From the NCBI RefSeq assembly GCF_003628145.1, contig NZ_RBZV01000017.1, positions 1 through 64,000 of the forward strand: a stretch of 64,000 nucleotides of DNA, given 5' to 3'. Positions 56,794 to 59,752 of the stretch are shown here, piece after piece (the stretch's first letter is position 1; the number at the start of each line of letters is the position of its first letter). Source of the stretch: Trinickia fusca. Lineage in GTDB: Bacteria > Pseudomonadota > Gammaproteobacteria > Burkholderiales > Burkholderiaceae. The notes beneath the pieces were generated by a model. It was given only the letters and a program-made list of their open reading frames with translations. It did no database searches and was not told the DNA's origin. Position numbers and translations under genes: made by a program.

Positions 56794-57495
56794 CTAATAC
56801 TGAACCAGAATCGTCACGCGCCGATTCGCAGCCCGGGCCGCCGCGTCATCTCCCAGCACTAACGGGACGTTATCCGCGCGGCCAATCGCGGCGAGCCTGA
56901 GCGGCTCGATTCCCTGGTCGACGAAGTACCGCACGACGGCCCCCGCTCGCGCGGACGAAAGCTCCCAATTCGACTCGTACTTCGCGTTCGAGATGGGCAC
57001 GCTGTCGCTATGGCCTTCGACCAAAATACTCTTCGCCGATCGGCTTGCGAGTGCTCGTGCGACTTGATTGAGGACTGCAAACGAATCGGGCAGCAGGCGC
57101 GCATCGCCCGAATTGAACAGGACCTTCGCGTTGATCGCGATCTCCACGCCCTCAGACGTATCGACCACCGCGATCTGGTGCTGGTCGCTCAACGGTTTCA
57201 AAAGGGAGAGCAGCGTCTGTTTCGCCGTTGTTCGCGCGTTTTGCACGGCGCTTGCGGCATCCATGCCGGCGACGGCGGCCCGTTGCTTGACGACGTGCGC
57301 GTCGAACGCCTTGCTCTCGAGCTCCCTGTATTTCGCCAACTGCAACACATAGAGCGCGAGAAAGAACACCATCAGCGTCGTGATGAGATCCGCGTAGGAA
57401 ATGAGCCAGCGCTCCGAACGCTCGTCGGCATCCTCCTCGTCCTCGTATCCGTTCTCGGAGGGTGCGAGGCGTTTGCCGCCAGAAAGGATGCTCAT
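56794..57495 (-). CDS. MotB-like OmpA-family stator protein
   Basis: A 233-residue protein with MotB architecture. A short acidic cytosolic lead is followed by one membrane helix, SYADLITTLMVFFLALYVL (residues about 33-53); Asp36 corresponds to the proton-carrying Asp of MotB. A helical linker (about 55-105) leads to an OmpA-like peptidoglycan-binding domain (107-231) with VEGHSDSVP (Asp164) and NWELSSARAGAVVRYF (Arg183), the residues that hold meso-diaminopimelate. It is shorter than E. coli MotB (308). It is last in the operon, 61 bases after the MotA-like gene. No chemotaxis or flagellar genes are adjacent. Confidence 0.88.
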   Translation of the reverse strand: MSILSGGKRLAPSENGYEDEEDADERSERWLISYADLITTLMVFFLALYVLQLAKYRELESKAFDAHVVKQRAAVAGMDAASAVQNARTTAKQTLLSLLKPLSDQHQIAVVDTSEGVEIAINAKVLFNSGDARLLPDSFAVLNQVARALASRSAKSILVEGHSDSVPISNAKYESNWELSSARAGAVVRYFVDQGIEPLRLAAIGRADNVPLVLGDDAAARAANRRVTILVQY

Positions 57496-57556
57496 GATGA
57501 AAAGCTCAATTCAAAAACCAGCGTTCGATACGATGCGTCCGGTCCGCCGAGCCGGG

Positions 57557-58321
57557 CTAGGCCAGCAGCTCCGCGGACCGCTCCCGGACTTCTGCCGCCA
57601 AACGCGTCTCGATGGTTTGCGGCGACTCCTTGCGCGAAATGGCGAGCAAGCCATCCAGGTACAACCGTCTGAAGCGCAATTCGCTATCGACCTGCGCTTT
57701 GATCTTTCCGTACAGCGGCAGAAAGATCAGATTCGCCAGCGCCAGGCCATAGAGCGTCGCGGTGAATGCGGCTGCGATACCTTGCCCGAGCTGCGCCGGC
57801 TCGAGGATGTGGCCCGTCACGTGGATCAAGCCGAGCACGGCGCCAAGAATGCCGAAAGTCGGCGCATACCCGCCTGCCTGCTGCCAGATGCGTGCCGCGG
57901 CCATGCGATTGCGCTCATAGGCAACCAACTCCCGTTGCAGGGCATCTTCGAGGACAGCGGTGGACACACCGTTTGCGAGCAGCTCCAAGCCCCGCTTCGC
58001 AAAGGCGTTGATCCCGCTGGCGTCGATCGATTCGAACGCCAGCATGCCGTTCAATTTCGCCTGATCGCCCCACTCGAGCAAGACCGAGAGACTTTCGCGG
58101 TCGACTTGCCGTGTCTTGGTGAACGCGAGATGCAGCTGCTTGATGCCGTCGCAGAACCGCACCCAGGTGTTCTGAATCATCACGGCGCTCACGGTGCCGC
58201 CCAGGACGATGACCAGCGCCTCCATCTGGAAGAGCGTCGTGAAATGGCCGCCCTCGAGCCAGAAGCCGAGGGCGATGGCGGTCGCGCCGAATAGCGCGCC
58301 AAATACGGTCAGCAGATCCAT
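57557..58321 (-). CDS. MotA-like stator proton/ion channel subunit
   Basis: A 254-residue protein with the four-helix MotA/PomA plan: TM1 MDLLTVFGALFGATAIALGF, TM2 EALVIVLGGTVSAVMIQ, a large cytosolic loop (about 52-150), TM3 GYAPTFGILGAVLGLIHVTG and TM4 GIAAAFTATLYGLALANLIF. Pro154 and Pro202 occupy the positions of the functional prolines. The loop has a charged patch (LQRELVAYERNRM) where MotA contacts FliG. Length and the GGYAPTFG motif place it with the shorter PomA/MotP-type stators. ATG 58321 or GTG 58330 (directly after the upstream TGA) may be the start. It needs the MotB-like protein to form a channel. Confidence 0.88.
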   Translation of the reverse strand: MDLLTVFGALFGATAIALGFWLEGGHFTTLFQMEALVIVLGGTVSAVMIQNTWVRFCDGIKQLHLAFTKTRQVDRESLSVLLEWGDQAKLNGMLAFESIDASGINAFAKRGLELLANGVSTAVLEDALQRELVAYERNRMAAARIWQQAGGYAPTFGILGAVLGLIHVTGHILEPAQLGQGIAAAFTATLYGLALANLIFLPLYGKIKAQVDSELRFRRLYLDGLLAISRKESPQTIETRLAAEVRERSAELLA

Positions 58322-58330
58322 GGCGAACAC

Positions 58331-59575
58331 TCAAGCTTCTCGGCCGGCAAGCGCCGTGCCATTGGCCGCAGACGTCTTGATCGTTCTGACGGTCTCGAGG
58401 AATCGTTGCTCGATGTCGCTCACTTCGAGCGGATCGATCTTGATGTCGCGCCGCATCACCCACGACACCTCTTTCCTCCTTGCATCCGCCAAGACGGAAA
58501 TCAGCCGTTCCGAAATCGACTGATCCGCCATCGTCGCGAGCAGCTTGGCGAGATCGTATGTATCGGTGGCGGCCACGGCCTCGAAGAGCGTCCTTTGATC
58601 GACGAATTCGAGATCCTCGAGCGAATTCACATCGCCAGTCCCACGCGCGTTTCGCTTCGAGAAGTAGCTGACCCCTTTCTGCTCGACATAATTGAGGACT
58701 CTCGTCTTGCGGAACGCGAACAGGTCCTCGGCGATTTCGCCATGCGACAGCTTGCTCAAGATCAGCTTCTTCTCCACCCCGATCAGCGTTTCCAGGTCGG
58801 TCAGCTCGATGAGCTCGAGTTCGCTGTTGATGGCGATATCCAGATCGCGGTCACCCACTTGCTCGGCGCGATCGGTGATCCGCGCCGGGTCGAACGTCAC
58901 CATCTGTCGGCCTATCGCATCGTCCTGCCCGGAATAGCGCGAGTTCTCGGGAAGACTTCCGGCCCGGCCGTTCTCCATCGTGATGAGATTGAGCTTCTCC
59001 ATCCGCTTGAGCATCGCCATCACGTGCGGACGGGAGTGGCCTGCAATCGCACGGCACTTCTTGATGACGTCAGGCAATGGCACGGAAACGTCGTCGCTCT
59101 GCGCACGCCGCATCCGTCGGTCCATCGACTCCACATTGTCGGCAGCCGCCATCAGCGCGAGGACATGCGCATACGACAGCACGCCTGGCAGGAAATCGGC
59201 GTGCGTGTACGTCGCGAGGAGATCGTCTTTCTTTCTGGACCGGCGAATCATCGTTCGCACCATATGGCGAACGAGCGGCGACGATCGCTCGAGCTCTTGC
59301 TCCACCGTGCTGGCTTGGACCACCGTCAATTGACAAAACGTCAGCGCCTTCGCGGTATGCGCACGCGGTTCGGCAGGCAGCAGTGCCGCTTCGCCGAAGA
59401 ATTCGCCTTTGCCGAGGGTGGCCAAGACGACTCGCTTGTCGTCGCATTGCGTGGAGAGTTCGACTTTGCCGTCCGCAATCACGTAAATGACTGCGTCGCC
59501 CGCGTAACCCGCGGAATAGATGACTTCGCCCGGAGCCGCTGTGCGCGTCCAGGACGACGATCGTTGCTGATTCAA
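58331..59575 (-). CDS. Cyclic-nucleotide-binding / CRP-like winged-helix / FliG-C-like fusion protein
   Basis: A 414-residue cytoplasmic protein, first in the operon. Residues about 8-100 are a cyclic-nucleotide-binding domain; the phosphate-binding cassette reads GEFFGEAALL with Arg71. Residues about 165-205 resemble the CRP winged helix (AGHSRPHVMAMLKRMEKLNL). Residues about 317-400 resemble FliG-C: LEDLEFVDQRTLFEAV, DTYDLAKLLATM, ISERLISVLADARRKEVSWV and DPLEVSDIEQRFLETVRTI. In true FliG the torque helix reads DDR; here it is DQR, and a later conserved Arg is Ala, so charge interactions with MotA may differ. The intervening about 110 residues are helical and may match the FliG middle domain. 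The stop abuts the MotA-like GTG. Confidence 0.75.
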   Translation of the reverse strand: MNQQRSSSWTRTAAPGEVIYSAGYAGDAVIYVIADGKVELSTQCDDKRVVLATLGKGEFFGEAALLPAEPRAHTAKALTFCQLTVVQASTVEQELERSSPLVRHMVRTMIRRSRKKDDLLATYTHADFLPGVLSYAHVLALMAAADNVESMDRRMRRAQSDDVSVPLPDVIKKCRAIAGHSRPHVMAMLKRMEKLNLITMENGRAGSLPENSRYSGQDDAIGRQMVTFDPARITDRAEQVGDRDLDIAINSELELIELTDLETLIGVEKKLILSKLSHGEIAEDLFAFRKTRVLNYVEQKGVSYFSKRNARGTGDVNSLEDLEFVDQRTLFEAVAATDTYDLAKLLATMADQSISERLISVLADARRKEVSWVMRRDIKIDPLEVSDIEQRFLETVRTIKTSAANGTALAGREA

Positions 59576-59752
59576 GATGCACTCCCCGTAACTGGTTCCT
59601 GCACGCCCGGTCCTCGTTGGTGCTTCGAGGCGGACGCGTCGTGCCGATGTCGCGGCTTATGCAAACGATAACGACATCATTAGGAGCATCTTTAGACTCG
59701 TCGACATACGTCTGACGAATGTGGGGGCCAAGGCTAAACGGAACACACTCGA
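59576..59752 (-). promoter_or_regulatory. Upstream region of the motA/motB/CRP-FliG operon
   Basis: This 177-base gap between the DUF924 stop and the fusion gene must hold the operon promoter. An imperfect inverted repeat with TCGTC/GACGA ends lies at 59699-59719. I see no TGTGA-N6-TCACA site, so classical CRP control is not supported. The right-hand edge (from about 59738) begins the DUF924-derived repeat. Confidence 0.35.

Follow-up and report, generated by a model that had tools for sequence, protein, structure and literature searches.

A cyclic-nucleotide-binding FliG-C fusion protein linked to a flagellar-class stator pair in Burkholderiaceae: a candidate stator clutch

Why should a bacterium encode, side by side, a stator pair of the flagellar type and a soluble protein that combines a cyclic-nucleotide pocket with a domain of the flagellar rotor? 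This question is raised by three adjacent minus-strand genes of Trinickia fusca (Burkholderiaceae; NCBI RefSeq assembly GCF_003628145.1), which lie in the first 64,000 positions of contig NZ_RBZV01000017.1 (the whole stretch analyzed here, hereafter the window) of a 6.1-Mb genome, and which had been described from the letters alone as a non-flagellar stator module (the original prediction). As judged by homology and conservation, a MotA/MotB pair of flagellar class is linked here to a protein with a cyclic-nucleotide pocket and a FliG-C domain, and in Burkholderiaceae the module is preceded by a predicted sigma-28-type promoter. We propose, tentatively and with somewhat less than even confidence, that the module is an accessory stator of the flagellar regulon that is gated by a soluble, cyclic-nucleotide-responsive rotor mimic, i.e., a clutch.

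Open reading frames and Pfam domains agree with the originally predicted places of the three genes, which follow one another along the minus strand in the order fusion, MotA-like, MotB-like:

58331..59575, minus strand: cyclic-nucleotide-binding / CRP-type / FliG-C fusion (414 amino acids, TTG start)
57557..58321, minus strand: MotA-like (MotC/PomA-type) stator A subunit, by Pfam, NCBIfam, and PDB alignment (open frame from GTG 58330)
56794..57495, minus strand: MotB-like (MotD-type) stator B subunit with plug and OmpA-type domain, by Pfam and NCBIfam

The MotA-like open frame spans 57557-58330, and the ATG at 58321 is its likelier start because relatives in the PDB align from residue 4.

Linkage of the three genes in other genomes had been expected, and it was found. 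A search for fusion loci gave 255 candidates, and the best 76 of these comprised 68 Burkholderiaceae loci (L009-L076), with the closest fusions among the named genomes listed in Paraburkholderia and Trinickia (identity up to 75%), and eight loci (L077-L084) that matched the N-terminal part only and were left out of the linkage counts. A MotA-like gene was matched in 68/68 of the listed Burkholderiaceae loci (in L074 over 43 amino acids only) and a MotB-like gene in 67/68; strand and order were identical in all 67 loci with all three genes matched (L074 was dropped from the order count, and some genes were partial or cut by contig ends), with ~1 kb separating MotA and MotB in L038. Among neighboring frames of at least 100 amino acids (clustered at E ≤ 1e-25 and 60% cover), the three module genes were the only families that recurred in at least 10 of the 68 listed loci, so the module resides in changing neighborhoods. 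Counted by genome, the fusion was detected at ≥64% identity in 24 of 199 relatives' genomes (10 of 11 within the genus), and a MotA-like search of 56 family genomes (E < 1e-30), including 17 of these 24 carriers, recovered an orthologue in 17/17 genomes with a full fusion and in 0/39 without.

Among 398 genomes of the phylum, a profile of the C-terminal part matched in just two, the own genome and another of the family; among 274 genomes of the same class it revealed four distant fusions besides the own one, while a fifth came from four genomes in the order of genome G367 and none from two plus two genomes of two other orders. The carriers, some of whose genomes are fragmented, are presumably all Gammaproteobacteria in GTDB terms. 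MotA and MotB lie downstream of the fusion in three of these five loci (L129, L130, and L131). Another genome of the family holds an orphan fusion (L089:5429-6583; 32-35% identical) that lacks part of the middle region and has no MotAB beside it.

Two further observations concern the genomic setting: in Paraburkholderia franconis CNPSo 3157 the module is present twice, on separate contigs (L042 and L071), and the fusion is found on eight secondary replicons of Burkholderiaceae, large ones of 0.85-3.5 Mb, in one of which it is annotated, as a 'cyclic nucleotide-binding domain-containing protein'.

The fusion protein itself was divided into four parts, as follows:

59285..59545, minus strand: cyclic-nucleotide-binding domain, residues 11-97, with pocket FGE + PR (Pfam PF00027)
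58976..59098, minus strand: CRP-type winged-helix-like region, about residues 160-200 (weak, non-significant profile match to CAP and Vfr)
58640..58906, minus strand: conserved middle region without known fold, residues 224-312 (from the alignment)
58376..58621, minus strand: FliG-C domain, about residues 319-400 (PDB profile search; Pfam FliG_C on relatives, not on this copy)

In the C-ring, FliG-C is where the stators exert their push. The C-terminal segment had been predicted to be FliG-C-like, and this holds. The window copy is too diverged for Pfam FliG_C, which gave no match even at E 10; comparisons from a narrow alignment were not significant (hhalign P 0.048 and 0.014), and a narrow-profile PDB search ranked FliG second (E 0.35) behind an unrelated protein at 0.16. 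Significance was reached only once relatives from other orders were added to the profile: with four distant relatives and orphan L089 included, FliG was the sole significant family in the PDB (3ajc 3.3e-8, 1qc7 4.2e-8, 1lkv 4.3e-8, and 4fhr 6.7e-8; next non-FliG 0.059). Pfam FliG_C scored above its cut-off on 5/5 distant fusions (1.8e-9 to 4e-6) and matched 43 of 45 aligned close orthologues at E ≤ 1 (best 4.1e-5), while in the genome search 14 of 24 Burkholderiaceae fusions reached E ≤ 1e-3, with 11 above the cut-off (one of these passing only with neighboring genes in frame). A comparison with the FliG-C encoded in the own genome gave E 9.1e-5 (probability 59%, 57 columns). We consider FliG-C homology of the fusion established at the sequence level, for the window copy by way of its close relatives. 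FliG-N and FliG-M had no Pfam match in the window copy (E ≤ 10) or in the five distant copies (E ≤ 0.01); one of the latter, L132, has a sub-threshold MgtE_N match inside its FliG_C part.

At the other end of the protein, the predicted cyclic-nucleotide-binding domain is clear (cNMP_binding, E 7.8e-19), and the winged helix said to follow it gave only faint profile matches (CAP, E 0.53; Vfr, E 1.7), neither of them significant. The FGE...PR residues, which have a role in binding cAMP or cGMP, are kept (E62 in 45/45 and R71 in 44/45 aligned orthologues), and the motif aligns with cGMP-dependent kinases; this conservation is in line with cAMP or cGMP as the putative ligand. PilZ had no Pfam match in the fusion at E ≤ 10, and a profile search with residues 224-312 gave no significant PDB match.

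Two places in the stator pair are used below:

58031..58057, minus strand: torque-loop residues K92 to E100 of the MotA-like protein (alignment with PomA)
57388..57390, minus strand: Asp36 codon of the MotB-like protein (the ion-carrying residue by family; conservation in orthologues)

In Pfam, the MotA-like protein matches MotA_ExbB (2.7e-24) and MotA_N (4.1e-6), and the MotB-like protein matches OmpA (1.6e-17) and MotB_plug (8.3e-11). The former passes narrowly (239.5 vs 237 bits) the cut-off of NCBIfam PRK09109 ('flagellar motor protein'), which we take to be MotC, and the latter is best matched by the NCBIfam model MotD, at a score under its curated cut-off. Alignments with MotA and PomA stators of solved structure cover most of the MotA-like protein (E 2.2e-47 to 6e-22), whose NCBIfam and PDB matches place it in the flagellar class. 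The Asp36 pointed out in the MotB-like protein is D in 66 of 67 listed orthologues and unread in one. K92 and E100 of the MotA-like protein align with PomA R88 and E96, which we take to be R90 and E98 of MotA, and both are nearly invariant among the 68 listed MotA-like proteins (K92 in 67, R in one; E100 in 67, Q in one). A role of the pair in driving flagellar rotation is putative. The genome encodes two canonical MotA besides, one adjoining flhC (L007) and one elsewhere (L008), both above the cut-off of TIGR03818 (MotA1). The pair is therefore not simply the flagellar stator, and all three outcomes that would have refuted the original prediction failed to appear. The second of these lies near 164863 on another contig, where it forms a canonical MotA1/MotB pair.

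Is the module then flagellar at all? The upstream region of the fusion contains two elements:

59669..59694, minus strand: sigma-28 (FliA)-type promoter TAAAGATG-N11-GTCGTTA(TC) (pattern match)
59582..59587, minus strand: ribosome-binding site GGGGAG (read from the sequence; relatives show a GGGG run here)

The pattern TAAA-N14/16-G[CT]CG[AT][AT]A was present in 55 of 67 upstream regions (66 listed loci plus the window; L074 and L075 were dropped as cut off), where mononucleotide shuffles gave an expectation of 0.1. In the 66 loci, the box starts 78-148 bases, mostly 108-123 bases, before the start of the match, and 54 box matches fell in the 300-base upstream windows vs 3 elsewhere in 1.7 million strand-bases. 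The pattern was set post hoc, after the upstream sequences had been viewed. The loci also include many close relatives; with redundant ones removed, 29 of 35 regions contained a somewhat stricter form of the pattern. The boxes read TAAAGATT and GTCGTTATC, with a G after TAAA in 55/55 that was not part of the search pattern. The FliA consensus is given as TAAAGTTT-N11-GCCGATAA (PMC4866697), and the box spacing equals that of this consensus or exceeds it by one base. Eight of the other 12 regions have a CAAG-type box at similar spacing, which brings the relaxed pattern to 63/67.

Across the own genome, the pattern is not enriched (18 matches vs 23 for a reversed control), and the promoter case rests on position, conservation, and downstream genes. 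Genes downstream of own-genome matches include flgM, a response-regulator gene, two chemoreceptors, and two GGDEF proteins, whereas the remaining matches precede genes without evident flagellar tie, and one overlaps the flhC start codon, which makes it no ordinary promoter of that gene. Given this predicted and conserved sigma-28-type promoter, the late flagellar regulon of Burkholderiaceae most likely includes the module. This, together with the flagellar class of its MotA and the similar promoter shared by flgM and the two chemoreceptor genes, speaks against calling the module non-flagellar. In 30 of 66 listed loci (L009-L070), including two Trinickia, the sigma-28-type box is itself preceded by a palindrome, CAAACGTTTG, which we take to be PurR/LacI-like, at about -146 to -235 relative to where the match begins; since the window lacks this palindrome, it was not retained as a candidate operator of the fusion.

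In the clutch that we favor, the CRP-like part would dimerize and bind cAMP or cGMP, and the FliG-C domains of the fusion would engage the dedicated MotA5B2 at its cytoplasmic torque loops, in C-ring fashion (5:2 motors are described in PMC9389320). Nucleotide binding would alter this contact and either restrain the accessory stator or free it and make it ready for the flagellar rotor, and the clutch would thereby select the stators that drive the flagellum. Docking and gating are our inference; the reading as a whole is favored by the FliG-C homology, the conserved linkage, the co-occurrence with MotA, the sigma-28-type box (seen also before orphan L089), the conserved K92, E100, and pocket, the presence of FliG, and the neighbors of some distant copies. 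Among the latter, a class III cyclase lies near the fusion in two of the five distant loci, i.e., immediately upstream in L129 and as the third gene downstream in L139 (L139:1711-6139: the fusion, then a TPR protein, a FecR protein, and a CHASE2 class III cyclase), and in L130 a 157-amino-acid single cyclic-nucleotide-binding protein (L130:4849-5322) stands between the fusion and MotA.

Several observations weigh against the clutch. A same-genus genome (G008) has FliG and no fusion, so the module is dispensable. True FliG was found in 30/30 fusion-bearing genomes searched, which is weak evidence because 70 of the 71 genomes searched overall have FliG anyway. The fusions at L089, L132, and L139 have no adjacent MotAB, and a sigma-28-type box was not found before any of the five distant fusions. 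Finally, the docking residues are changed. In the flagellar motor, the partners of MotA R90 and E98 are FliG D289 and R281, respectively (PMC4030992). Burkholderiaceae fusions have A, T, or V at the R281 place in 45/45 (with R one residue on in 45/45) and V or I at the D289 place in 45/45, while in the distant fusions, compared by eye, the R281 place is R in 4/4 and H in L139, and the D289 place is T in 4/4. The docking surface of the Burkholderiaceae fusions thus appears related to that of FliG but rebuilt, which fits a private partner without proving one.

Set against known systems, the module resembles each of several in part. It is like MotAB, MotCD, and PomAB in the full-length MotA alignment, the plug and OmpA-type domain, and the conserved Asp, K, and E; it differs in that its stators are encoded with a cyclic-nucleotide-binding FliG-C chimera, in varying neighborhoods, and next to two canonical MotA1 in the genome. 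The fusion shares a homologous C-terminal domain with C-ring FliG, from which it departs by the unmatched FliG-N and FliG-M, the attached CRP-like sensor, and, in Burkholderiaceae, the changed R281 and D289 places. YcgR, FlgZ, and MotI are, like the fusion, soluble second-messenger receptors proposed to act at the contact of stator and rotor; they are PilZ proteins for cyclic di-GMP (c-di-GMP) without a rotor domain, whereas the fusion has a cyclic-nucleotide pocket and a FliG-C domain. To our knowledge, direct second-messenger control of that contact is exerted by c-di-GMP and PilZ proteins in all systems known. The main text of a MotAB survey that separates flagellar from generic stator relatives (PMC12505986) mentions FliG once and 'cyclic' nowhere, and a term search of PMC6680979 gave no match. 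No cyclic-nucleotide-binding FliG-C protein was described, judging by titles and the opening of abstracts, in a literature that was mostly open, with few subscription journals or preprints; to that extent the original statement that no system of this composition has been characterized stands.

Among the rival explanations, a stator-tethered transcription factor seems possible but unlikely. The CRP-like protein would bind DNA and, through its FliG-C domain docked on the dedicated MotAB, would pass information on the activity of the stator, the load, or the ion-motive force to gene expression, with the cyclic nucleotide as modulator. Like the CRP/FNR regulators CRP and Vfr, the fusion has a cyclic-nucleotide-binding domain followed by a putative CRP-like helix-turn-helix stretch (GHSRxxV...LKRME..NL, in CRP-like domain order, with R182 in 45/45), to which the faint CAP and Vfr matches add; in contrast to them, its helix-turn-helix is weakly recognizable, with no significant match, its recognition-helix stretch is unlike between Burkholderiaceae and distant copies, and ~190 further residues, including FliG-C, follow. 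The PurR-like sequence, the sole other palindrome conserved upstream, is confined to 30 of 66 loci and missing from the window, which also speaks against this reading. About as doubtful is a private rotary unit, in which MotA5B2 would spin or twist the CRP-FliG-C dimer as its 'rotor', a soluble cyclic-nucleotide receptor that would integrate ion-motive force, cell-wall load, and the nucleotide signal and might bind DNA as a motor-to-gene switch.

A nucleotide-responsive brake on the ordinary flagellar motor, in which the fusion competes with C-ring FliG for the canonical stators or enters the C-ring and the MotAB pair is a decoy or secondary stator, is in our view improbable. It is favored by orphan L089, which has a sigma-28-type box at -113 in a genome without a MotA-like orthologue at E < 1e-30, by the L132 and L139 fusions without adjacent MotAB, and by the parallel with YcgR and FlgZ, which are effectors of c-di-GMP; however, none of the 56 family genomes searched has the dedicated MotA without the fusion, which suggests that it is a private partner. 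We give as little credence to an independent, non-flagellar motor, with the fusion forming a small rotor of its own on which the dedicated stator would act. The module is a self-contained three-gene unit in changing neighborhoods, and its distant copies lack the sigma-28-type box, but in Burkholderiaceae it has that promoter, every fusion-bearing genome searched has true FliG, and no known ring-forming part is present, FliG-N and FliG-M being unmatched. Of the roles originally foreseen for the fusion, a nucleotide-responsive brake or clutch suits the findings better than a rotor of its own. From the remaining suggestion, a coupling complex like TolQR, AglRQS, or Zorya ZorAB, which are likewise ion-driven stator relatives, the module differs in that its MotA partner scores best with flagellar A subunits and not with the generic class.

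With FliG-C placed on a soluble cyclic-nucleotide receptor, beside a dedicated stator and behind a predicted flagellar promoter, the clutch offers a testable case of direct cyclic-nucleotide control of stator-rotor contact, and points to a new means of controlling a rotary motor by a small signal molecule. The choice among several stator sets within one cell also becomes directly testable in soil strains that are not pathogenic, such as Paraburkholderia xenovorans LB400, which has a copy at L039.

FliG-C domains outside the C-ring were also seen in genome G482, where, besides the flagellar FliG, two proteins exceed the FliG_C cut-off: L162:3143-4747 (534 amino acids) and L161:3-2864 (at least 954 amino acids, with two such matches). 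Since neither is the flagellar FliG, G482 apparently encodes a small group of FliG-C proteins that are not part of the C-ring.

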